Part shown: positions 4,373 to 36,640 of the stretch, piece by piece | How positions within the stretch are numbered: the stretch's first letter is position 1 | Layout: every line of letters starts with the position of its first letter | NCBI GenBank assembly: GCA_947497945.1 | Contig: CANMIP010000003.1 | Span: 186,001 to 250,000 of the forward strand | Length of the DNA: 64,000 nt | From: an uncultured Tropicimonas sp. | GTDB taxonomy: Bacteria; Pseudomonadota; Alphaproteobacteria; Rhodobacterales; Rhodobacteraceae | Direction of reading: 5' to 3' | Made by a program: the position numbers and the translations under genes | The notes under the pieces: model-generated | Database searches by the model: none | Told to the model about the DNA's origin: nothing | The model's input: only the letters and a program-made list of their open reading frames with translations

Positions 4373-4548
4373 GGACTCAAGGCCGAAGGCCGCCGTCTTA
4401 TCGGGGATTGCACTGCAATGCCCCGCCTCCCGGCGAGATGGCGCTTTTTCATCCGCGCGCAATGCTCTGACCTTTTCCGGATCTGGTAGGATAAATAGCA
4501 GATCTCAGCTGTTGCTGCGCCAGCCCACGGACAGGCGCCGGCACGGCT
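4373..4548 (+). repeat. Dispersed palindromic element, copy A
   Basis: Intergenic element between the convergent rplI and priA genes. The left part (GGACTCAAGGCCGAAGGCC), core (CATCCGCGCGCAAT, then TCCGGATCTGGTAGGATAAA) and right arm (TGCGCCAGCCCACGGACAGG, then GGCACGGCT) align with the copies at 13084, 24220 (inverse) and 36475. Its left arm is the most diverged and carries its own small hairpin (GGGGATTGCA near 4403). Confidence 0.7.
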
Positions 4549-4614
4549 CCCGTTGTGGAAAATGGTATCCGCAGCGAGCGGCCTCCAACTCCCTTCCAGC
4601 CTCTCCGTCTTCCG

Positions 4615-6813
4615 TTACCAGAAGCTCTGCGGGTCGATATCCACGCTCAACCGGAAATTTGGCGGCAGCTTCACCTGTGCCAGCCAACGCGTCAGCGCCC
4701 CCTGCAGCGGCGCCCCCTTGGCGGCCTTGACCAGCAGCCGCACGCGGTGCCGCCCCCGCACCCGTGCGATGGGGGCCGGCGCCGGCCCGAAAACCTGCGC
4801 CCCCACCGCCCGCAGCGGCCCGTCCTGCCGGGCCAGCTCGGCGCCGAGATCGAAGACCTCCTGGATATCCTGCGACGACAGGATGACCCCCGCCAGCCGC
4901 CCATAGGGCGGCATCCCGACCGCCTGGCGCTGCTCGGCTTCGGTCTTCCAGAAACCCTCCTCGTCTCCAGACAGGATCGCCCGGATCACCGGATGCTCGG
5001 GCTGGTGGCTCTGTAGCAGCGCCACGCCCTGCCGCCCGGCCACGCGCCCGGCCCGCCCGGCGACCTGCCGGACGAGCTGGAAGGTCCGCTCCGCCGCGCG
5101 CAAATCCGTTCCTTGCAGCCCGAGATCGGCATCGATCACCCCCACCAGCGTCAGCAACGGAAAGTTGTGCCCCTTGGCGACAAGCTGCGTGCCGATAACG
5201 ATATCCGCCGCACCGCCGGCAATCTCCTCGATCTTCGCCTTCAGCGCCCGCGCCGAGCCGAAAAGGTCAGAAGACAGCACCGCCACCCGCGCCTCCGGGA
5301 AGCGCGCTACCACCTCCTCGGCCAGGCGCTCGACACCAGGCCCCACCGGCGCCAGCCGCCCCTCGACCTCGCAGCTCGGACAGGCCTCCGGCATCGGCTT
5401 GCTCTCGCCGCATTGATGACAGATGAGCCGCTTCTGGAACCGATGCTCCACCATCCGCGCATCGCAGAAATCGCAGCCGATCTGGTGCCCGCAGGCCCGG
5501 CAGACCGTCACCGGCGCATAGCCCCGCCGGTTCAGGAACAGCAGCGACTGCTCCCCTGCCTGGATCCGCGCATTGACCGCTGCCTCCAGCGTTTCGGAAA
5601 TCCACCGCCCGGAGGGCAGCTTCTCCGCCCGAAGGTCGATGGCCCGCATCTCGGGCATCTGCGCATCGCCGAACCGCGCGCCAAGCTCCAGCCGGTCGTA
5701 TTTCCCTGCCTCCGCATTGGCCCAGCTCTCCAGCGAAGGCGTGGCCGAGGCCAGTATGACCTGCGCATCGCAGAGCGAGGCCCGCAGCACCGACATGTCG
5801 CGGGCATTGTAGAAGACGATATCCTCCTGCTTGTAGGAGCTGTCATGTTCCTCGTCGACGACGATCAGCCCGAGATCCCGGAAGGGCAGGAAGAGCGCCG
5901 ACCGCGCGCCCACAACCAGTTCTGCGCCCCCTTCCGCGATCATCTTCCAGGTCCGCCGCCGCTCGGTCATCGTCACCCCGGAATGCCACTCCGCCGGCCG
6001 CGCCCCGAACCGCGCCTCGACGCGCGCAAGAAACTCCCCGGTCAGCGCAATTTCCGGCAGGAGCACCAGCGCCTGCCGCCCGGCGGCCAGGCACTCGGCC
6101 ACCGCCTCCAGGTAGACTTCCGTCTTGCCCGACCCCGTCACACCCCGCAAAAGCGTGGTGCCGTAGGCACCGCGCTTCACGGCGGCGCGCAGCGCCGCCG
6201 CCGCCGCCGCCTGGGCTTCGCTCAGCGGCACGCCCGCCTTGCCAGTCTCGAGACGCGGGAATGGAAGGTCGCGCGGCGTCGCCTCTTCCCGCACCGCGCC
6301 ATGCTTGACCAACCCTTTGACAACGCTGTTTGTCACCCCGGCGGCCGAGGACAGCTCCCCCATGGTGAAGGCCAGCCCGCCATAGTCTTCCAGCACCTCG
6401 AGAACGCGGCGGCGCGCATCCGTCATCCGCGTCGGCATCCCCTCGCCGCGTCGATAGACTTGGCGCATGGAGGGCGGATCGCCCAGCCCCGGCGCGCGCA
6501 GCCCCATGCGCAACATCGACGCCACCGGCGTCAGCGTGTAATCGCCGCAGCGGCGCAGGAACTCGCGCATCTCCTCGCGCAGGGGTGGCACGTCCAGAAC
6601 CCGGTCCACAGCGCGGATTTTCGAGCGGTCATAGTCGCCCGCACCCTCGCCCCAGACCACGCCAAGCACCTTGCGCGGCCCCAAGGGCACTTCGACCAGC
6701 GTGCCGGGCGCGCAGCCCTCCTCGGGCGCACGGTAATCCAGGCAGCGATCCAACGGCTGAGTCGTCAGCACCGCGACCAATTCATCCTTGGCAAACCAGC
6801 CTTTTTCCGTCAT
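4615..6813 (-). CDS. priA: Primosomal protein N' (replication restart helicase)
   Basis: 732 residues, the normal PriA length, counted from the ATG at 6813 ([16 protein letters not shown]). The frame is open far upstream but without family similarity. Seen: N-terminal 3'-DNA-binding domain (about 1-105), winged helix, Walker A GVTGSGKT (224-231), DEEH box (320-323), and a zinc-binding insert with paired cysteines (CRAC, CDFC, CHQC, CPSC, about 438-481). PriA reloads the replisome at stalled forks. It diverges from the transaldolase gene, with an 18-bp palindrome 10 bases upstream of its start codon. Confidence 0.97.
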
Positions 6814-6822
6814 CTCATTCCC

Positions 6823-6840
6823 CGGGTGGTATACCACCCG
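6823..6840. promoter_or_regulatory. 18-bp perfect palindrome, operator-like
   Basis: CGGGTGGTATACCACCCG is perfectly self-complementary over 18 bases and lies in the 90-base divergent gap between priA and the transaldolase. Its core TGGTATACCA matches the type of site bound by GntR/FCD-family repressors (for example the E. coli UxuR/ExuR core). No such regulator is encoded in the window, so the binding protein is inferred only by motif type. Confidence 0.55.
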
Positions 6841-6903
6841 CCGCCAGCTTGTACGGGCGCCATGCCGCGCCCCGGCTCCATACCCCTTTTGAGGAGGAAA
6901 CCC

Positions 6904-7557
6904 ATGAAATTCTTTGTCGATACGGCCGATGTCGAAGCCATCGCCGAGTTGAACGATCTCGGCATGGTCGATGGTGTGACCACCAACCCGTCGATCATCA
7001 TGAAATCGGGCCGTGACATCAAGGAAGTCACGAAGGAAATCTGCGACATGGTCTCCGGCCCTGTCTCCGCTGAAACCGTTGCGCTCGATGCGGACGGCAT
7101 GATCGAGGAAGGCCGCGAACTCGCGAAGATCGCCGAAAACATCGCCATCAAGGTGCCGCTGACCTGGGCCGGGCTCAAGGCCTGCAACGTGCTCTCCGGC
7201 GAGGGTCGCATGGTCAACGTGACGCTCTGCTTCTCGCCCAACCAGGCCCTTCTGGCCGCGAAAGCCGGCGCCACCTTCATCTCGCCCTTCCTCGGCCGGC
7301 TCGATGACCTGAACCTCGAAGGCACGGATCTGATCGCCGATATCCGCACGATCTATGACAATTACGGCTTCGAGACCAACATCCTCGCCGCCTCGATCCG
7401 CTCGGCCAACCACATGAAAGAGGTTGCCCTGATCGGCGCCGATGTGGCAACCGCGCCACCCAACGTGATCAAATCGATGGCGAACCACGTCCTGACCGAC
7501 AAGGGACTGGACGCCTTCATGAAGGATTGGGCAAAAACAGGTCAGAAAATTCTCTGA
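6904..7557 (+). CDS. tal: Fructose-6-phosphate aldolase-like transaldolase
   Basis: 217 residues, the short transaldolase/FSA class (TalC-like) rather than the ~320-residue TalB class. Seen: [10 protein letters not shown] start, TTNPSI (26-31) and the Schiff-base lysine in NIAIKVPLT (Lys83), with late SIRSANH. It would exchange three-carbon units between sugar phosphates in the pentose phosphate pathway. The start at 6904 has a strong GAGGAGGAAA ribosome site. The long plus-strand frame upstream of 6904 is only the antisense of priA. A palindromic operator-like site lies 64 bases upstream. Confidence 0.93.
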
Positions 7558-7607
7558 CCGGTGATCGACTTGCCGGGCGAAGTTGAAGTGGACCGGACGG
7601 GGCAGGC

Positions 7608-8321
7608 ATGAGCGATATCGCGGTGGATCTGGAAGAACTGAAAGACAAGATCATTTCGGAACCGGACGTGATCCTCGACGATCGCGACATCATGCGTGCC
7701 CTGATTTCGGCCAATGAGAAATCGCTCGGCGGCAATATCATTGACTTGCGCGGAATCGCGATGGAGCGGCTGGAAAGCCGGCTGGACCGGCTGGAAGACA
7801 CCCACCGCTCCGTTATCGCCGCGGCCTATGACAATCTCGCCGGCACCAACCAGATCCACCGCGCCATCCTGACCCTGCTCGACCCGGTCGCGTTCGAAGA
7901 GTTCCTCAAGGGGCTCGGCGGCGAAGTGGCGGCGATCCTGCGTGTGGACTGCATCAAGCTGGTGCTGGAAAGCAACGCCAATTCGGACGGCGAGATCGCC
8001 GTGCGCCGGCTCGGCGATGTGCTCAACGTGGTCCAGCCCGGATTTATCGAAGACTACCTGACCCAGGGCCGCGAGGGCATCCCGACCCGTCCGGTCACCC
8101 TGCGCCAGCTCCGCCCCGAGAGCGAGTTCCTCTACGGTGAGGCCGCCGGCTGGATCAATTCCGAAGCGCTGCTGAAACTCGATTTCGGCGCCGGCACCCT
8201 GCCCGGCATGCTGGCGCTCGGCTCCGAGGATCCGCACCAGTTCCGCCCCAACCAGGCGACCGACCTGCTGGCCTTCTTTGCCGGTGTCTTCGAACGGCAG
8301 ATGCGCCGTTGGCTGAGCTGA
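7608..8321 (+). CDS. DUF484 family protein
   Basis: 237 residues with the DUF484 layout: an N-terminal helical part (residues 1-70, including LRGIAMERLESRLDRLE) and a GAF-like C-terminal domain. The biochemical role is not established. In proteobacteria this family is often encoded directly before xerC, exactly as here, with a 13-base overlap between the genes, which suggests translational coupling. Confidence 0.85.
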   Translation: MSDIAVDLEELKDKIISEPDVILDDRDIMRALISANEKSLGGNIIDLRGIAMERLESRLDRLEDTHRSVIAAAYDNLAGTNQIHRAILTLLDPVAFEEFLKGLGGEVAAILRVDCIKLVLESNANSDGEIAVRRLGDVLNVVQPGFIEDYLTQGREGIPTRPVTLRQLRPESEFLYGEAAGWINSEALLKLDFGAGTLPGMLALGSEDPHQFRPNQATDLLAFFAGVFERQMRRWLS

Positions 8322-9247
8322 TCCATATCTCGGACGGGCTGCGGGACGCGATGTCCCGCTGGCTGGACCATCTGCGCGCCATTGACGGCGTGGCCGAGAA
8401 CACCATCACCGCCTATCAGCGCGACCTCCTCGGTTTTCTCGCCTTCCTGACGCAGCATCATGGCGACAGCCTCGGCCAGGCCCCGCTCGCCCGTCTGACC
8501 ATCTCCGACATGCGCGCCTGGATGGCGCATGAACGCGGCCGCGGGATCTCGGCCCGTTCGCTGGCGCGTGAGCTTTCCGCGGTGAAGAACTTCGCCGGCT
8601 GGATGGCCGAGCGCGACGGGTTCGACGCCACCGCGATCCTGGCTGCCCGCGCCCCGAAATACCGCCGCAAGCTGCCCCGCCCACTGGCCGAAGACGCGGC
8701 AAGGGCGGTGCTGGAAACCGTCGAATTGCAGTCCGAGGAGGACTGGATCGCAGCCCGCGACGTTGCCGTGGTGACGCTGCTCTATGGCTGCGGGTTGCGT
8801 ATCTCCGAAGCGCTCGGCTTGACGACCGATGCCCTGCCACTTGGCGAAAGCCTGCGCATTCTCGGCAAGGGCAACAAGGAGCGGATCGTCCCGCTCCTCC
8901 CCGCTGCAAGCGAGGCCGTCACCCGCTACCTCGCCCTCTCGCCCTGGCCAGTCGAGCCCGGCGCGCCGCTCTTTCGCGGCAAACGCGGCGGCGCACTCAA
9001 CCCGCGCCTGATTTCGAAAGTCATGGAGCGCACCCGCTTCCAGCTCGGCCTGCCCGCCTCGGCCACGCCGCACGCATTGCGCCACAGCTTCGCAACGCAC
9101 CTTCTCTCTGCAGGCGGCGATCTGCGTGCAATCCAGGAATTGCTCGGCCACGCATCGCTGGCTACCACCCAGGCGTACACGGCGGTCGACACCGCCCGCC
9201 TGATGGAGATCTACGAACAGGCGCACCCGCATTCGGACGCAAGGTAG
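8309..9247 (+). CDS. xerC: Tyrosine recombinase XerC
   Basis: 312 residues from a TTG start inside the end of the DUF484 gene. ATG at 8351 is a later alternative that would shorten the N-terminal core-binding domain. All catalytic residues are present: Arg164 (GLRISEA), Lys187 (GKGNKER), His255 and Arg258 (HALRHSFATH), His281 (LGHAS) and Tyr290 (TTQAYT). Together with XerD it resolves chromosome dimers at dif. The N-terminal SAM-like domain carries the usual NTITAYQRDL. No dif-like site was recognised nearby. Confidence 0.94.
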   Translation: MAELIHISDGLRDAMSRWLDHLRAIDGVAENTITAYQRDLLGFLAFLTQHHGDSLGQAPLARLTISDMRAWMAHERGRGISARSLARELSAVKNFAGWMAERDGFDATAILAARAPKYRRKLPRPLAEDAARAVLETVELQSEEDWIAARDVAVVTLLYGCGLRISEALGLTTDALPLGESLRILGKGNKERIVPLLPAASEAVTRYLALSPWPVEPGAPLFRGKRGGALNPRLISKVMERTRFQLGLPASATPHALRHSFATHLLSAGGDLRAIQELLGHASLATTQAYTAVDTARLMEIYEQAHPHSDAR

Positions 9248-9257
9248 GCCTCCCCCG

Positions 9258-9288
9258 CTCGCCCCGCCTGAGCCCCGCAAGGGGCGAG
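9258..9288 (+). terminator. Possible hairpin terminator after xerC
   Basis: CTCGCCCC (9258-9265) pairs with GGGGCGAG (9281-9288), 11 bases past the xerC stop. There is no U tract, so this is weak. The remaining sequence up to 9503 shows no gene. Confidence 0.35.
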
Positions 9289-9503
9289 GCAAAGAGAATG
9301 GCGCGGCACGCGCCGCCACCGAACAACCGGCAGGAAGGAACCGCAGCGCAAGCTCCCCCTCGGTGCTCAATGCCTTCGGCATCTCCCTCCATTGGGGCCG
9401 GGCGCGCCTTCGGCGCGTGTCTTCGGTTGCAACCCGCCCCACGCCCACCATAAGATCTCGAACCCGTGCCGATGTCCCGACCGACCTTCGCCAGAAAGCC
9501 CTC

Positions 9504-10214
9504 ATGACGCCAGAACACCGCGCCTTTTCCGTCCATCTGCTCACCGCAACCGGCGCCGTCCTCGCCATGCTCGCTCTTCTCGCGGCAGTGAATTACAATT
9601 GGCCGATGATGTTTGTCTGGCTTGTCGCCGCCTTCGCGGTGGATGGCATCGACGGACCTCTGGCGCGCCGCTACGATGTGCTTGCCAACGCCCCACAGGT
9701 CGATGGCGCGTTGCTGGACCTGATTGTCGACTATCTCACCTATGTCTTCATCCCTGCCTTCGCCCTCTACGCCTCCGGCCTCCTGCCGGGCTGGACCGGT
9801 TGGGCCGCGCTGATCGGCATCACCTTCACCTCGGCACTCTATTTCGCCTACACAGGCATGAAGACGACCGACAATTCCTTCTCCGGCTTCCCCGGCTGCT
9901 GGAACATGGTCGTGCTCGTGCTCTTCGCGCTGAAGCCGCCGGTCTGGCTTTGCATGATCTTGATCGCCGTGCTCGCCGCCGCAATGTTCACCTCGCTGCG
10001 CTTCATTCACCCGGTCCGGACGGCGCGCTGGCGGGCCATCTCCCTGCCGATGATCCTGATCTGGACCATCTGCGCGGCCTGGGCCGCCTGGGTTTCCTTC
10101 GACCCGCAGAGCTGGGCGCGAGTCGGGCTTTTCGTTTCCAGCCTCTACCTGCTCGGGGCCGGTATCGTGCAACAGGCCCTGCCGGAACGCGCGCGCAAGG
10201 CCCCCGCCTCCTGA
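9504..10214 (+). CDS. pcs: Phosphatidylcholine synthase
   Basis: 236 residues with several hydrophobic helices. The CDP-alcohol phosphotransferase motif is present in its Pcs form: D50-G51-xx-A54-R55, then G68-xxx-D72-xxx-D76, with the preceding VDGIDGPLARR typical of Pcs. It condenses CDP-diacylglycerol with choline to form phosphatidylcholine in the inner membrane, as in Rhodobacter and Sinorhizobium. The ATG at 9504 gives the expected start; the frame is open to 9363 but that part has no membrane or family character. Convergent with truA. Confidence 0.9.
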   Translation: MTPEHRAFSVHLLTATGAVLAMLALLAAVNYNWPMMFVWLVAAFAVDGIDGPLARRYDVLANAPQVDGALLDLIVDYLTYVFIPAFALYASGLLPGWTGWAALIGITFTSALYFAYTGMKTTDNSFSGFPGCWNMVVLVLFALKPPVWLCMILIAVLAAAMFTSLRFIHPVRTARWRAISLPMILIWTICAAWAAWVSFDPQSWARVGLFVSSLYLLGAGIVQQALPERARKAPAS

Positions 10215-10218
10215 GCCT

Positions 10219-11213: not shown

Positions 11214-12446
11214 TCAATGCCCGGTCAGCACCAGCCCGTTGATCGGAAGCATCATCGTCTGGATGCGCAGGATGAGCGCATGCACAAGGCCAACCGTATC
11301 GACCATGTGCAGATAAAGCCCCTCCCAGAACCCGACATCTTCATTGGCCAGCTTGTCGTGATTGTCGGTGTAGAGGTTCAGGATACATTTCGAACCGGGC
11401 GCGATCCGGTCGGTCGACCCCTCGAAAACCTCCTCCACAAGCACCGGAACGGTGGCCGGACGGGCCCTGTCCTGCACATCGAGCAACTGGTCGGTGGGAC
11501 GGAACTGACCGGCGGCCAGCACCGGCGGCACCGCCTGAACCCGCATCGGCAGGATCACGAATGGCAGCGAGAGGCAGGTCATCTCGCCGATCATGCCTTC
11601 CTTGATGACCTGCGAGTTGAGCTGGTTGAAACCGGCCTGGAAGAAGCCGTCGCTGAACTCCGGCGGAACCAGCAGGCCGGCTGGACGCATGAACGGATTG
11701 ACGATATCGCCAACCTGCAGGGCAAATTGCTGCACCACGCCGTCAACCCCGGCATAGACCGTCATCTTCGAGAGCGCCGTTTCGGCCTCGACAAGACTTG
11801 CCTTTGCCGTCTCGAGCTGTGCCGGCAGGCTGACATCGATCCTGGTCTGAACAGCGAAGAGCTGCGCCTCCGCGGCCTCAAGCGCGCCTTCGCGCGAGTC
11901 CACCGTGTTCTGCAGCTTCTCCACATCGCGTGGACTGACAGCCGCGGAGCCCTCGTCGAGCAGCTGCTTGCGCACCTCGTACTCGTCGATCGCCTGCTGC
12001 AAGGCGCCCATGGCCTGATCCACGCCGCCCTTTGCGACAGCCTTGTCCGCCTCCGCCAGCGCAAACTGGGCCTCGACCTCGGTGACCCGCTTGCTGGCGC
12101 TCTCGACGGCCGCCTTCTGCGTCCTGTCGTCGAGCGTGAACAGAACATCGCCTGTCTTCACCTGGCTGTTGGTCGTCACGAAGATCTCCTTCACCCGGCC
12201 ATTGCCTTCCGGAAGGATCGACACCGTGCGGAAGAAGGACGTCACGTTGGTCGTCGAGGGATGGTAATAGAACACGACGGTGATCAGCGCGATCGTCAGC
12301 ATCAGACAGGTCGTCAGACCGATCCGAAGCTCGTACCAGACCGAGAACAGCGTGATCTCCTTGCCAAGGCGTTTGCCTTGCTTGAATCGCCGGTAGAGGT
12401 AATCGGGCAACAGCGTGAATGTCGCACAGAAGAGAAGCTCAAGCAT
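11214..12446 (-). CDS. HlyD/EmrA-family membrane fusion protein
   Basis: 410 residues from ATG 12446, which overlaps the stop of the upstream gene (ATGCTTGA). A membrane segment lies near residues 48-66 ([14 protein letters not shown]). It is followed by a biotinyl-lipoyl-like half ([21 protein letters not shown]), a long coiled coil (about 118-245) and the second half ([18 protein letters not shown]). This is the periplasmic adaptor layout of YibH/EmrA-type proteins. No transporter or outer-membrane channel is adjacent, only the small membrane protein upstream. The substrate cannot be inferred. An N-terminal extension ([26 protein letters not shown]) precedes the anchor. Confidence 0.8.
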
Positions 12447-12900
12447 CTTTCTCGCCCTCCTCGTTGCGGCCTTCCCAGGAGTCGAGATCGACATAATCGT
12501 CCCGCGATGCACGATTCCGGCGCGAAACTTCCGCCTGCTGCTCCGGTTCGGGCATTTCCGAGCCTGACATCTTCTGCAGGGACATGGCGATGGATCTCAG
12601 TGGCGTGAGGAAATCCGGTATCGAAACCGCCGCCAGAAGCAGCGCCAGGATCCAGAACGCGTTGTTATGGGTCAGCAGGCCGATCAAGGCCATGATCGCC
12701 ACCAGCTGATACTGCGCCGGGCTCTTGGAATGCGCCATCTGCTCGGGCAAGGCGTGCAGCTTGAAGTAAAAGATCCCCAACCCGAGTACCAGAAGCAGGA
12801 CGAAGATCACGACAACGACGAAAAGCACATCCGTCTGTCCCGGCGGGGTCACGTACATCGGCAGATGCACGGCGCCTTCGGCTGTTTGGGAATCGGCCAT
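12439..12900 (-). CDS. Small two-pass membrane protein paired with the fusion protein
   Basis: 153 residues. Two hydrophobic spans are visible (about 25-45, VLFVVVVIFVLLLVLGLGIFY; and about 68-92), with a hydrophilic acidic C-terminus. The order membrane protein then HlyD-type protein, with an 8-base overlap, recalls the E. coli yibI-yibH pair, whose small partner belongs to DUF3302. The segment around LHALPEQMAHSKSPAQYQ would fit that family, but I am not certain. Ribosome site AGAGAGG precedes the ATG, and the upstream DNA (12905-12950) is AT-rich, a likely promoter. Confidence 0.7.
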   Translation of the reverse strand: MADSQTAEGAVHLPMYVTPPGQTDVLFVVVVIFVLLLVLGLGIFYFKLHALPEQMAHSKSPAQYQLVAIMALIGLLTHNNAFWILALLLAAVSIPDFLTPLRSIAMSLQKMSGSEMPEPEQQAEVSRRNRASRDDYVDLDSWEGRNEEGEKDA

Positions 12901-13083
12901 GGAAACCTCTCTGTTTCATTTCTTTCTTAATACCTTAGGTTGCATATATCGCGTGGCGGGCCAACAGGCGAGCGTCCCGGACCCCGGTTGTTTCCGGCCC
13001 TGCATGATCGACCCCGGGAATCACGGCAACGTGGCCGGAGCTCCATCATGAGCGGATTGCGGTCATTGGGTTTGCGCGCTGAG

Positions 13084-13248
13084 GGGCACGGAATCAAGGC
13101 CGAAGGCCGCCGTGCCCGCGCCGGACCGTCCCGGCGGTCTGGCGCTTCTGCATCCTCGCGCAACGGATTGAACGTTTTCGGACTTGGCAGGGATCAAGTG
13201 CAGACCACAACTGTTGCGGCGCCAGACCACGGTCCGGCGCGGGCACGG
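13084..13248 (+). repeat. Dispersed palindromic element, copy B
   Basis: Best-preserved copy. Left terminal repeat CCGTGCCCGCGCCGGACCGT (13110-13129), then CCCGGC, then GGTCTGGCGC (13136-13145). The right end (13219-13248) is the exact reverse complement of both blocks, lacking only the 6-base insert. GGGCACGG at 13084-13091 repeats the right tip and can also pair with CCGTGCCC at 13110-13117. The core reads CGCGCAACGGATTGAACG and CAAGTGCAGACCAC. It lies between pntB and the membrane protein gene at 12900. The rest of 12931-13363 holds no gene. Confidence 0.85.
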
Positions 13249-13311
13249 CTTACGTTGCAACTTCTGCGAAGGACCGATCCGTCCGCTGATTGTCACCACT
13301 GGCCCTCGGCC

Positions 13312-13345: not shown

Positions 13346-13363
13346 CCAAGGATCGGGAGTTGC

Positions 13364-16523: not shown

Positions 16524-16971
16524 TCACCTTCGCCCATTGCTCGAATTGCGGGCCGAAATCCTCCCGGAGCCAGGCCTCTTCCTCGGAAATGAACCGATCC
16601 GTGATCACCCACATGAAGAGCGGGACCAGGACCAGGCTCGGCCAGGCAGACCAGTGCAGGACAAAGCCCAGCAGAACCATCGCGTCGCCGAGATAGATCG
16701 GGTTGCGCGAGCGGGCAAAGGCGCCGTTGGTCACTAGGAAACGGGCATGCTGATGTGGCACGAAGGTCGTGTGGTTCTGGCGCATCTGCACCACGGCAAC
16801 CAGCATCAGCAGCAGCCCGCCGCCGATCAGCAGTCCCGCGACCAGGTCCGCGAGCGGATGATCGATCCGCCCGACCGGCAGCCGCGTGGCCTGGATCCAG
16901 GTCAGCCCCAGAAAGAGCAGCAGCCAGGTTGGGGGGACATCCACCCATTTCACAAGTGACATCTTTGGCAT
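16507..16971 (-). CDS. Isoprenylcysteine carboxyl methyltransferase-family membrane protein
   Basis: 154 residues from ATG 16971 (MPKMSLVKWVDV). Four to five hydrophobic segments are followed by the conserved ICMT/PEMT-like C-terminal region: GAFARSRNPIYLGD near residues 84-97, then ITDRFISEEEAWLREDFG. This is the SAM-binding half of the family, so a methyltransferase role on a lipid or small molecule is likely but the substrate is unknown. The frame is open far upstream without similarity. It is a lone gene; the promoter probably lies within the long gap upstream. Confidence 0.8.
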   Translation of the reverse strand: MPKMSLVKWVDVPPTWLLLFLGLTWIQATRLPVGRIDHPLADLVAGLLIGGGLLLMLVAVVQMRQNHTTFVPHQHARFLVTNGAFARSRNPIYLGDAMVLLGFVLHWSAWPSLVLVPLFMWVITDRFISEEEAWLREDFGPQFEQWAKVTRRWI

Positions 16972-17370
16972 GAGGCGTCCCGTTTCTGTCCCTGTGTTCC
17001 AAATACCCTGTCGCAACAGATCCGCAAGCCCGAGTTGGACGGTCTCGCGCAAAGTTGCCTTCCCTGGGCAGACGTGAGACCGGTGCGGCCCCATACCAGA
17101 AGTGGACCGGGAGGATGACGCCGCACGACCCGAGCGGCAGGATCGATCCCTCCACAACCGCGCCGGACCCGGTCTCCGGAACCGTGTCGAACTGCGCCGG
17201 CACGCGGCGCTGGCCCGGCGCAGGCGTGGCGACCAGCGATCATGCCTCCCCTGCCCGGATGTGCCGCAGCACCGCCGCCTTCCGCCTCTTTCAGGCGCTC
17301 TGCTGGTCGCATCCGTCGCACCCTCGCCTTCGCGCTGGCGCCTCGCCAAGACCGTCGCTAGGGTCGCGGC
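16972..17370. other. Intergenic region, no gene recognised
   Basis: About 400 bases between the divergent methyltransferase-like gene and the ABC permease gene. Open frames exist on both strands but have no recognisable domains. This is where a transporter's binding-protein gene would often sit; no trace of one was seen. It presumably holds both promoters. Confidence 0.6.
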
Positions 17371-18318
17371 ATGGTTCGATATGCTGCCACCCGACTGATT
17401 TCGCTTGGCTTGTCGCTCATGGCGGCGAGCCTGGTGATCTTCGCGGTGGTCGAGGTGATCCCGGGAGACCCCGCCGCCTTCATGCTCGGCATGAACGCCT
17501 CGGAGGAGACCGTCGCCGCCCTGCGTGACGAGCTCGGCCTCACAGGCTCGCTGCCCGCGCGCTATCTCGGCTGGGTGACCGGCATGCTCGGCGGCGATTT
17601 CGGCACCTCCTATACGTACCGCGTCCCGGTTTCCGAGCTCATCGCGGCCCGGCTCTGGGTCTCGCTGCCACTCGCGCTCTACGCGCTCGCGCTCTCCACC
17701 CTGCTGGCCCTGCCGATCGGCATGCTGGCCGCCGCCCGGCGCGGACGGGCCACCGATTACGGCATCATGGGGCTGACGCAGCTCGGCATTGCCGTGCCGA
17801 ATTTCTGGTTCGCCATGCTGCTCGTGGTGCTGTTCGCCATCACCTGGCCGATCTTTCCCGCCGGCGGCTTTCCCGGCTGGGAGAACGGCGCCTGGCCCGC
17901 GCTCAAGGCGCTGACCCTGCCGGCCGTGGCGCTGGCGCTGCCGCAGGCCTCCATCCTTGCCCGCGTCATGCGCTCGGCCCTGATCGAGACGCTGGGGCAG
18001 GATTATATCCGCACCGCCCGCGCCAAGGGGTTGACCGAGGGACAGGCGATCCGCAATCACGGGATGCGCAACGCGATGATCCCGGTGCTGACCATTGTCG
18101 GCCTGCAATTCTCCTTCCTACTGGCCGGCGCGATCATCATCGAGAAGGTCTTCTTCCTGCCCGGCCTAGGCCTGCTGATCTTCCAGGGCATCACGCAGCG
18201 GGACCTCGTGGTGGTCGAATCCGTTGTCATGCTACTGGTCTTCGCGGTGATCCTCGTCACCTTCCTTGTCGATCTCGCCTATGCGCTGGTCGACCCCCGC
18301 CTGAGGCATACGCGATGA
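17371..18318 (+). CDS. Peptide/nickel-type ABC transporter permease (DppB-like)
   Basis: 315 residues, six predicted membrane helices, and the inner-membrane permease signature near residues 207-235 (YIRTARAKGLTEGQAIRNHG) that couples to the ATPase. The start MVRYAATRLISLGLSL is typical of DppB/OppB. First of three genes joined by ATGA overlaps, so tightly coupled. The substrate is probably a peptide or similar oligomer, but nothing in the permease fixes it. The cognate periplasmic binding protein is not encoded next to it. Confidence 0.9.
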   Translation: MVRYAATRLISLGLSLMAASLVIFAVVEVIPGDPAAFMLGMNASEETVAALRDELGLTGSLPARYLGWVTGMLGGDFGTSYTYRVPVSELIAARLWVSLPLALYALALSTLLALPIGMLAAARRGRATDYGIMGLTQLGIAVPNFWFAMLLVVLFAITWPIFPAGGFPGWENGAWPALKALTLPAVALALPQASILARVMRSALIETLGQDYIRTARAKGLTEGQAIRNHGMRNAMIPVLTIVGLQFSFLLAGAIIIEKVFFLPGLGLLIFQGITQRDLVVVESVVMLLVFAVILVTFLVDLAYALVDPRLRHTR

Positions 18319-24100: not shown

Positions 24101-24219
24101 GTCACCCTGTCTGACGGGCGCGAAAAGGAAATCCTTGGAGCAAGGGACCGGTTTTTCCCGGGGCGGTCAATGAGAGAGATGCGGACGTTCTTTGCACATG
24201 CAAAAAATGGGAACGGTAG

Positions 24220-24381
24220 CCATGCCAGTGCCTGCCCGTGGGGTGGCGTTACAACACCCGTGGTCTGCACTTTATCCCGGCCAAACCCGGAGAAGTTCAA
24301 TCCGTTGTGCGCGGATGACAAAACGCCAGCCCGCCGGGACGGGCAGGCGCTGGCATGGCGGCTTCGCCTTGTTTCCATGCC
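24220..24381 (-). repeat. Dispersed palindromic element, copy C (inverse orientation)
   Basis: Left arm CCATGCCAGTGCCTGCCCGT (24220-24239) and right arm ACGGGCAGGCGCTGGCATGG (24339-24358) are inverted repeats with one mismatch in 20. The inner parts GGGTGGCGTT and AACGCCAGCCC also pair. CCATGCC at 24375-24381 is the third, alternative arm. Read on the minus strand the core (CATCCGCGCACAACGGATTG, GATAAAGTGCAGACCAC) matches copies A and B. It lies between the sigma factor start and the 3' end of the MBL-fold gene. Confidence 0.85.
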
Positions 24382-24486
24382 AATAGGCGCGCAGCCCCAA
24401 TGTCCGTAAACGGCTCTTAGCGGTATCCGAGAGCCCCGCTTTCGGGCCCGGTGCCTCCTGCACCCTGGCCCAAAACCAGCCGCAGA

Positions 24487-29305: not shown

Positions 29306-30385
<1,080 letters not shown>

Positions 30386-30467: not shown

Positions 30468-30545
30468 GGCATGGAATCGAGACCGAAGGCTGCCCTCTCT
30501 CGGCCCCAGCCCGCGCTCTTCGGCCCGTCGCGGCGGACCAGCGCC
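30468..30545 (+). repeat. Degenerate fragment of the palindromic element (copy E)
   Basis: GGCATGGAATCGAGACCGAA followed by GGCTGCC aligns with the left hairpin of copy B (GGCACGGAATCAAGGCCGAA). Further on CCCGTCGCGGCGGACCAGCG resembles the inner left terminal repeat. The core and right arm are not clear, so this is probably a decayed copy. The remainder of 30386-30745 shows no gene. Confidence 0.4.
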
Positions 30546-30745
30546 CTGTTGACGCAAGCGCCCCCCGGTTGATGTTGCCGAACACGTTGCCACGGGGCGC
30601 GGCTGCCAAGTCCTTTCCCGGCACAGGCAGCGGTCCCCCGTTCCGTCCGCAAGACCGCCGATTTCCTGCGCAGATCGAGGGCGCCCCCACTGCCGGTGTT
30701 GCATCCGACATTGAGAACAAAACATGAACGCACTATACTCCCCCC

Positions 30746-31372
30746 ATGTCCAGCCATGCCGCCCTGCTCTCCCGCGCACCGCATTCCGGTCGCCCCGCCC
30801 TGCCCATCCTGGGCGAGATGTCCCTGACGCTGGCGCGGGTGCACGAGCTCTGCGGCGCGGCGCGGCGGAGCCTGGCGCTGGAGGTGGCCGCTGCACGCAC
30901 AGGCCCGGTTCTCTGGATCGTGCCGGGCTGGGGCGCGGAATGGCTCAATGGCGAGGGGCTCTGCGAACGGGTCGATCCCGGCCGGCTTCTGATACTGCGC
31001 GCGCAACGCGCCGAGGATCTGCTCTGGACCATGGAGGAAGCGCTGCGCAGCGGGGCGGTGCCGCTGGTCGTGGCCGAACTGCCCGTCCCTCCGGCACTGA
31101 CGCCGGTGCGCCGGCTGCATCTCGCGGCCGAGACCGGTGCCGATTCCGGGACCGGCCTGCCCGCCCCGATCGGCCTGCTGCTGACCCCGGGAGAGGGTGG
31201 CGCGCCGGGGATCGAAAGCCGCTGGTCATTTGCGCCCGCCCATGCCCCCGGCCGATCCGCCTGGACCCTGGACCGCCTACGCAGCCGCATCGCCCCCCCG
31301 GCGCGCTGGCAGATACAGGAAGGCCCGCCGGACCGGGACGGTCGGCGCCGCCTCCAGCCGGCCCCGCGCTGA
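30746..31372 (+). CDS. ImuA-like RecA-superfamily protein
   Basis: 208 residues. The core [21 protein letters not shown] followed by [15 protein letters not shown] and [39 protein letters not shown] follows the ImuA/SulA-RecA layout, but no canonical Walker A is visible. [14 protein letters not shown] is the conserved late helix. ImuA normally helps the ImuB-DnaE2 mutagenic polymerase; neither partner is nearby, so the role here is uncertain. The true start could also be the ATG at the internal MSLTL (about 30818). Confidence 0.7.
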
Positions 31373-31414
31373 AAAGCCATCGCCTCGCAAGGGCTTCGCC
31401 CCCGGAACGAAACC

Positions 31415-31437
31415 GGGCGGCGCCATCGGCACCGCCC
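31415..31437. terminator. Hairpin between convergent imuA-like and bactofilin genes
   Basis: GGGCGG-C-GCC ATC GGC-A-CCGCCC forms a 9-bp stem with one internal mismatch in the 112-base gap between converging genes. There is no U tract; it may end transcripts from either side. Confidence 0.4.
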
Positions 31438-31484
31438 ATTCAAACTGATTTACAAACCCGTCGCCTGCAGCGCAGGCGGAAAGA

Positions 31485-31997
31485 TCACGTCTCGGCGTCC
31501 GGAGTCGCCTCAGGCACGATCGGCTTGGGAAGCGCCTTGCTGCCAGCGCCGCTCAGCGGATCGTCCTGGCGCTGCACGGAGCCTTCGAAATGCGCGCCGC
31601 TCTCGATGGCGATGGTCTTGTGGATGATGTCGCCCTCGACCTTGGCCGTCGAGGTCAGGCGGACCTTCAGGCCCCGCACGCGACCGGCGATATGACCGTT
31701 GATCACCACGTCATCCGCGACGCATTCGCCCCGGATCGTCGCATTCTCGCCGATCGTCAGCAGATGAGCGCGGATATCGCCCTCGACCGTTCCCTCGACC
31801 TGGATGTCTCCAGAGGTCTTGAGATTGCCGACAATGGTCAGGTCCGAGGAAAGCACGGATGCCGGCGGTTTCGCCTTGGGCATGCTCGGCTTCGTGTCCA
31901 GACCCGGCACAGCCGGCTTCTTGGCGGCCTCGGGCACCTTGGAGGTTTCGGGTTCCTTTGCCGGGCCGGGCTCGTTGATTCGGCTCTTAGAAAACAT
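31485..31997 (-). CDS. Bactofilin (polymer-forming cytoskeletal protein)
   Basis: 170 residues. A proline/lysine-rich N-terminal tail (1-48) precedes the beta-helix core, with repeating short strands such as LTIVGNLKTSGDIQVEGTV and ATIRGECVADDVVINGHI (about 49-145), and a second disordered tail. Bactofilins polymerise without nucleotide and position cell-wall enzymes. The 11-base overlap with the upstream M23 peptidase gene repeats the well-known bactofilin-peptidase pairing. Confidence 0.92.
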   Translation of the reverse strand: MFSKSRINEPGPAKEPETSKVPEAAKKPAVPGLDTKPSMPKAKPPASVLSSDLTIVGNLKTSGDIQVEGTVEGDIRAHLLTIGENATIRGECVADDVVINGHIAGRVRGLKVRLTSTAKVEGDIIHKTIAIESGAHFEGSVQRQDDPLSGAGSKALPKPIVPEATPDAET

Positions 31998-33309
31998 CTT
32001 TGGCTGCCTTGATAAAGTTCATCGGGTTCACAGCCGTTCCGTTCACGCGCACTTCGTAGTGCAGATGCGTGCCGGTCGACCGTCCGGTGTTCCCCATATC
32101 ACCTATCCGCTGGCCTTTCGAGACCCTTTGACCTTCCGACACCCGCAGCTTGGACATATGGGCATACCAGGTTTCGATCCCGAACTCGTGCCGGATCTTG
32201 ACCATGCGGCCGAAGCCGGAGTGCCAACCCGCTTTCACAACAACACCATCCGCAGTCGAATAGATCGGCGTGCCGTGGCCGGCCGCGAAATCGGTGCCGT
32301 TATGCATCCGCCCCCAACGCGGCCCGAAGCCCGATGTAAAGCGGAAGCTGCTCTTCAGCGGCATCGCGAAAGGCGCCTTCTCGGCGGCGATTCGGTACAG
32401 GTTCATCCGGTCCAGCCCCTTCAGAAGGGAGTTGGCGCGGGACTCGTCCGCCGTCGGCTCCATGCCCTTGGTAGAGAAGGTGATCGGTGTCAGCGGGCCG
32501 CCCTGGCCGGAATAGCCGCGCTTGACCGTGTCCAGCAGCCGCGAGGGCGGCAGGCCGGCCTTGGTGAACATCTTCTCGAGCGGCGCGACGGAAACGGTCA
32601 GCGCCTCTTCGAGCTGGGTAAAGATCCTGTCGTTGCGATCGAGGATCATGTCGCGCTCGAACCTGGCCTCCTCGGCCTCCTCCAGCGCCAGCTCGGCCCG
32701 TGCGAACATGCTGTCGCGCTCCTCGGCGGTGCGCTCCAGCGCCTCGTTGAGGAAGGCGACCGTCGTGTCGACCTCGGCCAGCGAATTCCGCTCGGCCTCC
32801 GCCTCGGCGCGTCCTTCAAGGATAGCCACCGCCTGCTCGACCTCGCCGCGCGCGCCGTCGCGTTCTTTCATGGTCCGGCGCAGGGTGCTCTGGATCACGC
32901 CGATGCCGGTTTCCAGTTCGCGGCGGCGATCCTCGGATGTCAGCAATTGCGACTGCATGTCGGAGATCTGGTTCAGCGCGGCGTTGAAACGCTCATGCGC
33001 GGCCAGCGCCTCGACCTCGGCCGATTCCCGGGCCAGCGACAACGCGTTGAGCCGCTCCTCGTAGAGCGCCTGGTCGCGCTGTGCCTGCTCGCGCGCATTG
33101 CCCGCGCCGATGCTCTCCATCAGCAGGACGGAAGAGGCCAGGATGGCCCAGGCGATCGTCGCCGCAGAGCCGAACAGGACCAGTGCCTGCGTGCCTGGCC
33201 GCAGCCGGATAAAGCGCGTCTGTTCGCTTTCCGAACGCAGGAATAGTCGCTGCTCCGGAAACCATCGTTCGAAAAAGCTGTGAATTCGGTCACTCGGTCG
33301 CGTACGCAA
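31987..33309 (-). CDS. M23-family peptidoglycan endopeptidase
   Basis: 440 residues. One membrane anchor (about 44-64) is followed by a long coiled coil (70-220) and a C-terminal LytM domain with the zinc motifs HNGTDF (near 334) and HLHYE (near 418) and the GFGPRWGRMHNGTD stretch. All four expected ligand positions look intact, so it should be an active DD-endopeptidase. It is translationally linked to bactofilin, which probably localises it for cell shape or division. The upstream region 33310-33592 contains no gene and presumably its promoter. Confidence 0.93.
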   Translation of the reverse strand: MRTRPSDRIHSFFERWFPEQRLFLRSESEQTRFIRLRPGTQALVLFGSAATIAWAILASSVLLMESIGAGNAREQAQRDQALYEERLNALSLARESAEVEALAAHERFNAALNQISDMQSQLLTSEDRRRELETGIGVIQSTLRRTMKERDGARGEVEQAVAILEGRAEAEAERNSLAEVDTTVAFLNEALERTAEERDSMFARAELALEEAEEARFERDMILDRNDRIFTQLEEALTVSVAPLEKMFTKAGLPPSRLLDTVKRGYSGQGGPLTPITFSTKGMEPTADESRANSLLKGLDRMNLYRIAAEKAPFAMPLKSSFRFTSGFGPRWGRMHNGTDFAAGHGTPIYSTADGVVVKAGWHSGFGRMVKIRHEFGIETWYAHMSKLRVSEGQRVSKGQRIGDMGNTGRSTGTHLHYEVRVNGTAVNPMNFIKAAKDVF

Positions 33310-33592
33310 AGGCCCGTCCCGTCCCCTGGATCTCTTGTTTTTTTGTCAGCCGGTTCACGCCGTCCCCATCGGCAACCTGCTTACAGGGGCTTAGGACCTG
33401 TGCAGAATTCGTGCAAGAAATTTGAAGCTTTTCTATTGTCGCACCCGGGGTGCTGCCGCGAATCGGCAAGTTTTCGCCGATTCCTTTCGCGTTATCAGGT
33501 AATTCGGAGCGGTTTCGCGCCACGCGCTCAACCTATGGGATAATTCCTGCTCAAAACGCGACCGGTGCAGGAATTCACGCTTCATGCGTCAT

Positions 33593-34819
33593 TCACTCCC
33601 GCCGGTCGCGATGGCGGCGCATCAGGCGGCCGATGGTGAAGGAGGTGCGCGGCGCATAGACATAGGGCGTCCGCTCCTCGACGGTCGGACGCGCGCGCAT
33701 CCGGGCAAGGCCGAAAACGACCAGCGTCGCATGGGCGATTGCGATCATGACGAAGAGCGCGGCCGGACCGTAGGCCGCGATGAGGGTCGAGGAGAGAAGC
33801 GGCGCGCCGATCGCACCAAGGGCGAAGAAGAACATCAGCGCGGCAGAGAGCTCGACCCGCTGGTGGCTCTCGGCGAAGTCATGCGCGTGGGCGGCGGAGA
33901 CCGAAAAGATCGGGAAGGAGACCAGCCCGAAGACGAAGGCATTGCCGAAGATGACCGCATCGGAGGCGGTGCCGATGGAGACGGTCGCGAAACAGGAGCC
34001 GATGGCGGCGACCGAGAGCCCGATCAGGACCCAGCGTCGGTCGAACTTGTCGGCGAGCCATCCGACGGGGAACTGCGCCAGCGCGCCGCCGAGCACCCAG
34101 GCCGCGAGGAACCAGGCGATCTGGCTCGGCAGCAGACCGACCTCCTGCCCGTAGACCGGCCCGATCATCCGGAAGGAGGCCGAGGAAACGGCAGCAACCA
34201 CGACGCCGGCCGCCGAGAGCGGCGAGAGGCGCAAGGCAAGCCCGGGGCGCAGGCGCGGCGCCGTCGGCGTGCTGGGCTGACGCACGGTGGACAGGGTGAT
34301 CGGGAAGATCGCCGCGCAACAGATCAGCGCCAGCAGGTTGTAGGAGAGATAGGCCGCCGGGGCGAGCACGCCGATGAGCAGCTGCGCCCCCAGGTTTCCC
34401 ATCGTGTCGACCACGCGATAGATCCCCATGACGCGGCCACGATTGGCATTGCGCAGCTTCGATTGCAGCCAGGCTTCGATGACAGTGTAGGCGCCGGCAA
34501 CGCAGAGGCCGGTGGCGATCCGCATCCCAGCCCAGGCAAGCGGGTGGACCAGCATCATATGCGCGAGCAGGCCGATGGCGCCGGTTGCGGTGAAGGCGGC
34601 AAAGGCGCGGGAATGGCCGACCGACCCAATCAGCCGCGGCGCCCACCAGCAGCCGATGAAGAAGCCGATAAAATGGGCCGAGCCAAGCAGGCCGATCTGG
34701 GCGGTGCTGAAACCGAGTTGCAGGCCCGACAACGCATCCAGCGGGCCGACGCCCCCCGACGAGAGTTGCATCAGGAGGACAGACAGGAAGAGGGCAGCGA
34801 AGGAGATGAGCAGGCGCAT
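33593..34819 (-). CDS. MFS transporter (YcaD-like)
   Basis: 408 residues with 12 predicted membrane helices. The MFS motif-A-like loop GWLADKFDRRWV near 255-266, a first-half GCWWAPRLIGSVGHSR, and GLCVAGAYTVIEAWLQSKL near 97-115 resemble the YcaD group of small-solute permeases. Substrate unknown. Divergent from the TTG-started gene at 35050 across about 230 bases. Confidence 0.85.
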   Translation of the reverse strand: MRLLISFAALFLSVLLMQLSSGGVGPLDALSGLQLGFSTAQIGLLGSAHFIGFFIGCWWAPRLIGSVGHSRAFAAFTATGAIGLLAHMMLVHPLAWAGMRIATGLCVAGAYTVIEAWLQSKLRNANRGRVMGIYRVVDTMGNLGAQLLIGVLAPAAYLSYNLLALICCAAIFPITLSTVRQPSTPTAPRLRPGLALRLSPLSAAGVVVAAVSSASFRMIGPVYGQEVGLLPSQIAWFLAAWVLGGALAQFPVGWLADKFDRRWVLIGLSVAAIGSCFATVSIGTASDAVIFGNAFVFGLVSFPIFSVSAAHAHDFAESHQRVELSAALMFFFALGAIGAPLLSSTLIAAYGPAALFVMIAIAHATLVVFGLARMRARPTVEERTPYVYAPRTSFTIGRLMRRHRDRRE

Positions 34820-35049
34820 TGGGAGATTCGGCTTGGGGTCGCTTCGGGGTGGCGTCTTGCCGGCCCCGGGTCTGGTCCGTTCGCGACTTGATTGCGCAAA
34901 TGCGTCATGTTTCTGTGCTCGAAAGATCGCCCCTCCCCGAGACGCATTGTGTTGTGTAATCAGAACGACAGGTGACGGACCTCGCCTTGCGGTGGAAGAA
35001 CCTCAGCGTGGCCCTGTGTTCCGGTGCCGGAGGTTGAAAGGAGCCCCCC

Positions 35050-35448
35050 TTGCCTGTTGTCGCGAAGATCCTTCCGAAGGCCAATCTTGTCTATGCACGA
35101 TATTCCGGGACAGTGCTCCTTGACGAGATCCGCGCAGAAATGGCCCGGACATTCGGCGACCCGGCCTATCATCCGTCGATGAACGAGATCGGTGACCTGC
35201 GCCAGACCGAGGAGATCGATCTCCGCTTCCCCCAGATGCTGGCCCATGCAAATGCGGTCGTGGCGTTGAATGAGCGCAGCAAGACGCGCAAGTCGCTCCT
35301 GCTCGTCGCCGATAGCAGTCTGCGCTATGGAATGGCCCGCATGTTCCAGAGCCTTGCCGAACGGGACGGCGCGAACCTGCAGGTGCATGTCGTGACCACG
35401 CTGACCGAAGCCGAACGCATCCTCGGCCTCGACCCGCTTGGTTTCTGA
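35050..35448 (+). CDS. Conserved Rhodobacterales protein, possible STAS/SpoIIAA-like fold
   Basis: 132 residues from a TTG start preceded by AAAGGAG. The pattern MPVVAKILPKANLVYARYSGTVLLDEI, then NEIGDLRQTEEIDLRFPQM, then SLLLVADSSLRYGMARMFQSL, alternates strands and helices like SpoIIAA/STAS-type proteins. Similar short proteins are common in this order. No function is assigned. Confidence 0.7.
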   Translation: MPVVAKILPKANLVYARYSGTVLLDEIRAEMARTFGDPAYHPSMNEIGDLRQTEEIDLRFPQMLAHANAVVALNERSKTRKSLLLVADSSLRYGMARMFQSLAERDGANLQVHVVTTLTEAERILGLDPLGF

Positions 35449-35513
35449 AGGCGACACGGTCTCCCCCCCGTGGCGGGCCCCGAGCGGATCGCCCCGGCGC
35501 GGACCCGTGACCT

Positions 35514-36293
35514 TCACTCCGGGTGGATCAACGCGCGTCGGTAGAGATGCCAGGTCGCATGTCCGAGAACCGGCAGGGCAATGAAGAGGCCGAGAAAGGC
35601 CGGGATCATCGCCAGCACCACGTAGACCGCGATGATGATCGCCCAGAGGAACATGACGGCGAAATTCTCCCTTACCGCCTCGAAGCTCAGCAGCATGGCT
35701 GTCATGAAGTCAATTTCCTTGTCGACAAGCAGCGGCAGCGAAAAGGCCGTCAGGCCGAAGAGGATGAAGCCCAACACGCCGCCCACGGCCATCTCCACCG
35801 CGATCATTGTCAGCCCGTTCGCGGTCAGGAAGACCTCGAACGACGACGTCACGTTGGTCATGACCGAAAGCCCCATGAAGAGCGCGAAGATCATGTGGGC
35901 GAGGAAGGAATAGAACAGGAAATAGATCACGATGATCGCGCCGATCCAGGGGATCTGGCGGTCCTTCTCTTTCCAGATCACGCCGAAGATCTGGTAGAGA
36001 TCCAGCGGCTTGCCAAGCTCGATACGCCGGCTCGTCTCGTAGAGCCCGACAGCGGCGAAGGGCGCGAGCAGCGGAAAGCCGAGCGCCAGGATCAGCGTCT
36101 GGGAAACGAAGCCGCCCGAGACGAAGAGCAGGATCAACCCGCCCAGCACGTAGACACCGCTGAAAACCAGGCCAAAGCCGGGTGCGCGGCGAAAATCCTT
36201 CCAGCCCATGTCGAGCGCGTAGAGAATGTCGGAACGGTCGAGCTCCGCGATATCCGGGCGCGGTGACGCCTGGATCCCGGTTGTGTCTGTCAT
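35514..36293 (-). CDS. DUF2189 family integral membrane protein
   Basis: 259 residues with about six membrane helices. It begins with a hydrophilic DIAELDRSDILYALDMGWKDFRRAPG, the conserved DUF2189 entry, followed by GLVFSGVYVLGGL and PLLAPFAAVGLYETSRRIELG. Role unknown; in some genomes it neighbours respiratory genes but not here. The 481-base region upstream (36294-36774) holds element copy D and no gene. Confidence 0.85.
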   Translation of the reverse strand: MTDTTGIQASPRPDIAELDRSDILYALDMGWKDFRRAPGFGLVFSGVYVLGGLILLFVSGGFVSQTLILALGFPLLAPFAAVGLYETSRRIELGKPLDLYQIFGVIWKEKDRQIPWIGAIIVIYFLFYSFLAHMIFALFMGLSVMTNVTSSFEVFLTANGLTMIAVEMAVGGVLGFILFGLTAFSLPLLVDKEIDFMTAMLLSFEAVRENFAVMFLWAIIIAVYVVLAMIPAFLGLFIALPVLGHATWHLYRRALIHPE

Positions 36294-36474
36294 GTCGGGC
36301 CTCCCCTCCCGGCTTTGGCAGGCAATGACGGCCAGAATGCCGCAGATCGCTCAGGATGCACGTGTTTTTTTTGCCGGAATTGGAATTTTTCGCGCAACGC
36401 GCCGCGTCTTCGATCTCTTCGCTGCGCTGGACGCTCGGCTTTTGGCCGTGGAGGAAACCGGGCGAAGCCTTGAT

Positions 36475-36640
36475 GGGCACGGAGTCGAGCCGGAGGCGCC
36501 GTGCCAGCACCGGACCGTCCCGGCGGTCTGGCGCTTTGCCAGCCTTGTGCAACGCTCCGGTCTTCTTCGGGCCTGGTCTGGATAAAACGCGCTGTACAGA
36601 TGTTGCGGCGCCAGCCCACGGTCCGACGCTTGCAAGGCTC
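36475..36640 (+). repeat. Dispersed palindromic element, copy D
   Basis: GGGCACGG (36475-36482) pairs with CCGTGCC (36499-36505). The left arm CCGTGCCAGCACCGGACCGT, then GGTCTGGCGC, mirrors the right arm GCGCCAGCCCACGGTCCGAC (36609-36628). Long stretches (CCGGACCGTCCCGGCGGTCT) are identical to copy B. The core is shorter and diverged. It lies between the DUF2189 start and the 3' end of metG. Confidence 0.85.

Follow-up and report, generated by a model that had tools for sequence, protein, structure and literature searches.

Several families of palindromic repeats known from bacteria resemble the element considered here, an intergenic repeat present in four copies (A to D) in a 64,000-nucleotide stretch of DNA from an uncultured Tropicimonas sp. 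(assembly GCA_947497945.1, contig CANMIP010000003.1, positions 186,001 to 250,000; below, the window). One of them is formed by the Caulobacter CcrM-associated intergenic repeats (CIR), whose original description is said to be that of Chen and Shapiro in 2003. According to the review PMC2229807, CIR elements are ~110 bp long, have two arms plus a linker and carry GANTC in a loop; a further account of them is given in PMC10969869. Repetitive extragenic palindromic (REP) sequences of 20-40 bp carry a GTAG or CGTC tag, and those of the CGTC type have 8-9 bp stems, are mostly alphaproteobacterial and, according to PMC3733652, are without a dedicated transposase. ERIC, NEMIS and RUP are presented in PMC2229807 as ~105-155 bp palindromic, largely intergenic elements which resemble miniature inverted-repeat transposable elements (MITEs) and form a single end-to-end stem-loop, and ERIC and NEMIS RNA is said there to affect mRNA stability or processing. 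Motifs HRC-8-4, uORFC-8-2 and SAM/SAH of Rhodobacterales are, in PMC8632094 and PMC2864571, tied to particular genes.

The four window copies belong to one repeat family, which is real, abundant and conserved in its fold, and this fold is conserved more than the sequence. The unexpected property is that one arm of the ~165-nt conserved core, arm1, has two partners which exclude each other, and compensatory changes maintain its pairing with both. Compared by description, the repeat is like CIR in being alphaproteobacterial and intergenic, with two inverted-repeat arms, a linker and, in part of the copies, GANTC in a loop. It differs from CIR in its length and its extra, alternatively pairing arm (165 nt against ~110 bp), in having GANTC in about half of the copies, in an internal loop, and in that no sampled genome of the class outside the family matched either of our two covariance models, R1 and R2. 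High copy number, palindromic structure and location after genes and between convergent genes are shared with REP sequences and bacterial interspersed mosaic elements (BIMEs), and the lack of a dedicated transposase with the CGTC type; however, the REP size is not kept, the repeat being 165 nt long with a 20-bp rod, and it departs from the GTAG type in that the Tropicimonas genome is without a Y1 transposase. The search for this enzyme (PF01797), positive in 5 of 14 control genomes, gave 0 matches there, and a reading in terms of REP sequences and their associated tyrosine transposase (RAYT) was rejected on this ground. ERIC, NEMIS and RUP are similar in length, palindromic and largely intergenic, whereas in our repeat one arm can pair with either of two others, and the arms vary strongly in sequence between subfamilies while the fold is kept. 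No description of the family was found in the literature searched, which is weak evidence of absence because subscription papers were mostly outside its coverage.

When the best 150 of 7298 candidates were scored with R1, at least 95 non-overlapping places were found in the 5.79 Mb genome and not merely the four of the earlier note; 118 matches at E 0.01 or better correspond to 95 places because a near-palindrome scores on its reverse strand too, and 75 of the 95 reach at least 61.8 bits. The training set of R1 comprised copy D and 28 genomic loci that include B and C (29 copies in total), and A is the sole window copy outside it. All four are recovered, at 90-192 bits, within a few bases of the positions given previously, and non-training copies of the same genome score up to 168 bits. 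BLAST with copy B gave, from 123 candidates, at least 40 matches at E 3e-26 or better including itself, hence at least 39 non-self ones, of which the best has E 1.7e-80; three other genomic copies are 94-97% identical to B. The proposal that these similarities are a chance property of GC-rich intergenic sequence could draw on the weak single-copy fold of D (z -1.40) and A (z -0.26), which is not clearly better than that of shuffled sequence, as it clearly is in B (z -6.85) and C (z -4.03). The BLAST matches, the scores of non-training copies and two class-wide samples with no match outside the family make this proposal practically untenable, and the genome-wide search refutes it.

Read from 5' to 3', the core starts with arm0 (consensus GGCACGG), the internal loop AATCAA and a small stem, GGC-GAA-GCC, which varies in length and sequence together. 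These are followed by arm1 (consensus CCGTGCC AGCGCC TGCCCGT), a loop, arm2 (CGGGC TGGCGCT), a linker of ~70 nt in which GGATAAA, with ATAAA within it, is the best conserved part, then arm3 and finally arm4 (ACGGGCAGGCGC TGGCACGG). Arm0 and the first part of arm1 (arm1a) make hairpin P1, the second part (arm1b) and arm2 make hairpin P2, and the whole of arm1 pairs with arm4 into a 20-bp rod. In copy B, arm1 and arm4 are an exact 20-bp inverted repeat, and a further inverted piece, GGTCTGGCGC/GCGCCAGACC, lies 6 bases further in on one side, which agrees with the exact inverted ends and 6-base insert described earlier. Of the window copies, only B and C contain the core words then proposed as common to all, C having one mismatch in the first of them; the sequences of A and D are different at these points.

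Both folds are supported by covariation. Out of 109 copies, 57 were chosen by hand to be diverse (Tropicimonas genome, six others and one plasmid) and aligned with MAFFT. In this alignment, P1 and P2 together have 93.8% standard pairs and the rod 92.8%, with two-sided changes at 13 of 22 and 16 of 20 pairs, respectively; the percentages lean towards structures that were written from one copy, from which the double changes do not follow, and kinship among copies inflates the counts of such changes. Sliding the partners by 1-3 columns lowered pairing to 44.7% or less. The covariation score was reached by 0 of 500 shuffles, and the further pair types were matched by 13 of 500 (P1 and P2) and 0 of 500 (rod). 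A swap test was applied to 106 matches out of 110 (one reverse-strand shadow and three of odd length were omitted): own arms paired better than those of other copies in 96 cases for P1, 90 for P2 and 97 for the rod when swapped among all groups, and in 94, 78 and 93 within groups; for arm2 with arm3 the values were 58 and 61. Compensating changes among copies, reported earlier for B, C and D, are real. At one site common to the Tropicimonas genome and its congener G003, pairing is preserved although arm1, arm2, arm4 and the small P1 stem have all changed; either compensation took place at the site or another copy replaced the original one. Over 104 copies, predicted unrestricted folds were more stable than local hairpins (span of at most 45), the mean difference being 13.5 kcal/mol on one strand and 16.5 kcal/mol on the other.

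Because arm1 stays complementary to two exclusive partners across at least five genera, in which arm sequences are very different, one may ask whether the repeat is a family-wide bistable element selected as a two-state switch, for example a bidirectional 3'-end device. P1 and P2 would then fold while RNA polymerase is on the element, and the rod once arm4 has been made, and the cell could treat read-through from two convergent genes differently. We regard such selection as doubtful.

The window copies and their parts are collected below.

Table 1. Copies of the repeat in the window and the parts recognised in them (window positions; R1 scores in bits)
Feature	Position	Strand	Remarks
Copy A core, decayed, 180 nt	4368..4547	+	R1 90.2 bits; between convergent L9 and priA genes
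Palindrome GGGGATTGCACTGCAATGCCCC nested in copy A	4403..4424		Similar inserts in other genomic copies (L232, L242, C3:134096)
Copy B core, 165 nt	13085..13249	+	R1 185.3 bits; downstream of pntB, past its intrinsic terminator
Copy B arm0, P1 partner of arm1a	13085..13091	+	
GAATC (GANTC, CcrM-type site) in copy B P1 internal loop	13091..13095	+	
Copy B arm1, arm with two alternative partners	13110..13129	+	
Copy B arm2, local partner of second half of arm1 (P2)	13135..13145	+	
Copy B linker motif GGATCAAG, consensus GGATAAAG	13191..13198	+	
Copy B arm4, pairs long-range with arm1 (20-bp rod)	13229..13248	+	
Copy B outer 5' end	13050..13068	+	2 mismatches to searched pattern (C3:199050-199068)
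Copy B outer 3' end	13268..13288	+	4 mismatches to searched pattern; read against consensus
Copy C core, 163 nt	24219..24381	-	R1 192 bits; after metallo-beta-lactamase-fold gene, before ECF sigma factor gene, both on minus strand
Copy C outer 5' end	24398..24416	-	1 mismatch (C3:210398-210416)
Copy D core, 163 nt	36476..36638	+	R1 149.3 bits; between metG 3' end and DUF2189 gene

A weak R1 match at window 17151-17255 (22.8 bits, E 0.007) is possibly a decayed copy; the preceding gene call ends at 16953 and the following one starts at 17371.

Within the samples searched, the repeat is confined to the Rhodobacterales family. R1 found it in 69 of 198 family genomes from 197 genera (best 14 candidates or fewer scored per genome), in 14 of 40 genomes, own included, all within the family, of which 24 were searched, and in 1 of 190 class-wide genomes, that being the Tropicimonas genome itself; the second, more diverse model R2 matched 2 of 289 genomes of the class (at most 9 candidates scored per genome), both of the family. 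Matches of 74-78% identity were obtained by blastn on five Salipiger plasmids and one Pacificitalea plasmid, and Thioclava loci also contain R1 matches; the family was judged to be Rhodobacterales from these matches and from the relatives of pntB. Around pntB in named genomes, R1 matched at E <0.001 in 3 of 80 loci (L142, L116, L106). Viral contigs contained no sequence identical to the single strict P2 pattern with which they were searched.

Positions of the copies mostly differ between species. Within the genus, the number of R1 matches ranges from 0 (three genomes) to 24, against at least 72 in the Tropicimonas genome. Sites clearly common with the latter were recognised at two congeneric loci (L070/L233, L217/L227) among 74 loci of other genomes (two overlap others), an undercount because these were compared with only 50 of the 95 places. 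The spacer after pntB is without the element in 7 of 7 testable congeners (G002 ends there at a contig end), and these spacers are too diverged for a clean empty site, the far neighbour being visibly the same only in G003. In the gap downstream of pntB, G003 (L250/L258) has a different palindromic sequence (...GCCTCCGGCGGGGATATTTTGAGAAAGATG...), perhaps of another intergenic repeat family of the group. Downstream of pntB, the window also contains a 153-aa gene (12439-12900, minus strand), which had no NCBIfam or Pfam match at E 0.001 and has, by eye, a similar counterpart beside pntB in G003.

Location with respect to genes was analysed with home-made gene calls for 108 gaps derived from 111 elements or arrays (tandem arrays counted once) of the Tropicimonas genome and six relatives, mostly best-scoring copies (53 of the 95 own places). 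That the elements are intergenic and mostly follow genes, as the first inspection had indicated, was supported: the gene calls overlap 2 of 111 elements, both in relatives, and the gaps are convergent in 52 cases, tandem in 48 and divergent in 8. Among 250 element-free control gaps (minimum length 30 bp), the respective numbers are 37, 143 and 70, which makes convergent gaps enriched with Fisher p 1e-10, although the convergent controls are uneven (6 of 82 at own loci, 10 of 72 at loci of relatives and 21 of 96 in seven congeneric pntB stretches). Of the 48 elements in tandem gaps, 41 are closer to the 3' end of the gene before them than to the start of the gene that follows. Two annotated plasmid records give the same picture: in Salipiger sp. 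CCB-MM3 the core lies 13 bp after fdhF and 24 bp from a convergent gene, and in Pacificitalea two convergent genes are separated by a gap that three direct copies occupy.

The explanation that we favour, with a probability of roughly one half, is that of a non-autonomous palindromic intergenic repeat of Rhodobacterales, REP/BIME- and CIR-like, acting as a two-way barrier at 3' ends. It would be spread by an enzyme or by recombination supplied in trans, and would survive where strong hairpins are harmless or helpful, that is, just after genes. Whichever strand is transcribed, local hairpins would form first, co-transcriptionally, followed by the more stable rod; the resulting stem at the transcript end could limit read-through into the convergent neighbour and slow 3' exonucleases, as was proposed for REP/BIME elements.

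Several observations weigh against such a barrier. In the Tropicimonas genome, a recognisable intrinsic terminator separates the element from its gene in 15 of 72 cases and follows the gene at 14 of 74 control ends, so that the element is neither a clear substitute for terminators nor their companion; copies B and A lie past the terminators of pntB and the L9 gene, and T-runs after P2 are short. The location could reflect tolerance and not function. Covariation of P2 is weak within single genomes: own arms pair better in 32 of 47 copies of the Tropicimonas genome and in 13 of 22 of G016 (p 0.056). Counts of G-U against A-C pairs, made on 104 copies of 150-175 nt with a fixed structure, are 35 GT/16 AC for P2, 9/22 for P1 and 37/80 for the rod, and because of these mixed signs we make no claim on the acting RNA strand; an earlier version of this test, with pairs chosen by RNAalifold and a poor alignment of the own-genome copies, was discarded. 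No target-site duplication and no clean empty site was found. G002, G016 and the Pacificitalea plasmid have direct same-strand tandem arrays, whose period is mostly 204-235 bp, but there are none in the Tropicimonas genome, where no two of the 95 places lie within 1 kb.

A different account of the convergent location would have the repeat work as DNA, as a site to which a protein of the nucleoid or the cell cycle binds, or for which it is extruded, and which relieves supercoils where convergent transcription meets. BIMEs are associated with gyrase and IHF, and these proteins, or CcrM as speculated for CIR, would be the candidates. Independence of orientation, the 3'-end and convergent position and a strand test pointing to no single RNA strand are all consistent with it, and so is GANTC, which stands at the internal loop of P1 in 53 of 109 copies, compared with 2.5% in shuffled copies, and is present in window copies A, B and D. 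This site is a point of contact with CIR, though it is missing in the other 56 of 109, the commonest motifs of the Tropicimonas genome having the T changed in 8 copies and the N in 4, and it may be only ancestral sequence; on balance, we hold action at the DNA level to be improbable.

A further possibility, that a multicopy structured RNA, sRNA-like (small RNA) or a cis RNA switch, is made from the plus strand, with P1 and P2 as one state and the rod as the other, appears quite improbable. Two exclusive folds that both covary, the conserved linker motif and the direct same-strand arrays in relatives would suit it. However, orientation with respect to tandem neighbours is unbiased (8 same and 15 opposite in the Tropicimonas genome; 21 and 28 overall), the sites of copies differ between species, and no Rfam match at the gathering score was obtained in the window. 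The sub-threshold matches of copy B to Twister-sister (17.8 bits, E 0.28) and Bcj14 (15.9 bits, E 1.1) were set aside as chance-level; an Rfam scan of ten other loci is blind to matches that weak and neither repeats nor excludes them. In line with the earlier note, no indication of coding was seen: the 82-nt linker of 32 copies has no three-base periodicity, every reverse frame has stops in some copies, and a coding reading of the reverse strand was dropped.

A separate problem is how the repeat would move. Many copies in the Tropicimonas genome share a 5' flank (GAGCCGNTNGCGGACNTTG...) and a 3' flank (...GAAGGTCCGCTCCGTCCGCAA), giving a unit of ~240-270 bp, and the outer ends of the consensus contain a short shared inverted piece, TTTGCGGAC/GTCCGCAAA, by eye ~9 bp long and variable; the strongest inverted repeats are internal and not at these ends. 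Recurrent outer ends are what a classical MITE would have, namely a deletion derivative of an insertion sequence (IS), moved by the IS transposase acting on them, with the fold as a by-product. The 3'-end pattern (at most 3 mismatches) has 18 genomic matches against 0 for the reversed control; 16 adjoin an R1 match and 2 are core-less or altered forms, while copy B, with its 4 mismatches, falls outside these 18. With at most 1 mismatch, the 5' pattern has 15 matches, 12 of them adjoining an R1 match, one in a truncated copy (C15:73181) and 2 away from any, but with at most 2 mismatches it is hardly above control (53 against 44). Short forms of ~92-152 bp, in which these ends are retained and the core is deleted (C15:45708-45859, C7:144006-144156 and C6 near 73941), as well as the near-identity of three copies to B, would also agree with a MITE; the deletion forms look like products of recombination between the direct repeats arm2/arm4 (C15, C7) or arm0/arm4 (C6).

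Nevertheless, we consider a classical MITE unlikely. All 18 3'-end matches lie on short elements, none gene-carrying, and no transposase gene with matching ends was found in the Tropicimonas genome; a target duplication was not seen; and compensatory change in two alternative helices is unexpected of passive debris. The outer flanks were not seen in the 45-nt flanks of the G016 and G022/G018 copies despite the conserved core, and therefore the core rather than the ends is the part conserved across genera. The direct repeats arm0/arm4 were rejected as a target duplication, since both covary with arm1 and the Pacificitalea copies are without the arm4 end. The name MITE-like, used in the earlier note, is thus partly right: recurrent ends, short forms, near-identical copies and mostly unshared sites speak for it, whereas target duplications, a clean empty site and a transposase with matching ends, all proposed there as checks, were looked for and not found, and mobility is inferred.

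Internal replacements were also noticed. A second small palindrome (GGGCATTGCA...TGCAATGCCC type) is nested in arm1 at window 4403-4424, in L232 and L242 and at G000 C3:134096, and the repeats therefore appear to insert into, or recombine with, one another. In two copies (G000 C8:136378-136518 and C2:227862-228004), the linker is swapped for the same foreign central palindrome (...CCAATGGCGCTCCCAATGGCGCC...), which represents a third kind of internal replacement.

As a whole, the repeat is another intergenic palindromic repeat, and its unusual part is the doubly complementary arm. The Rhodobacterales family is large and common in the sea, and a repeat found neither in Rfam nor in the literature searched is present in about a third of its sampled genera (69 of 197), at gene ends where transcription of neighbours collides. 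The doubly complementary arm makes it testable whether intergenic palindromes are selfish debris or are kept for control of RNA 3' ends or supercoiling, and the copies constitute a natural set of variants for such assays.

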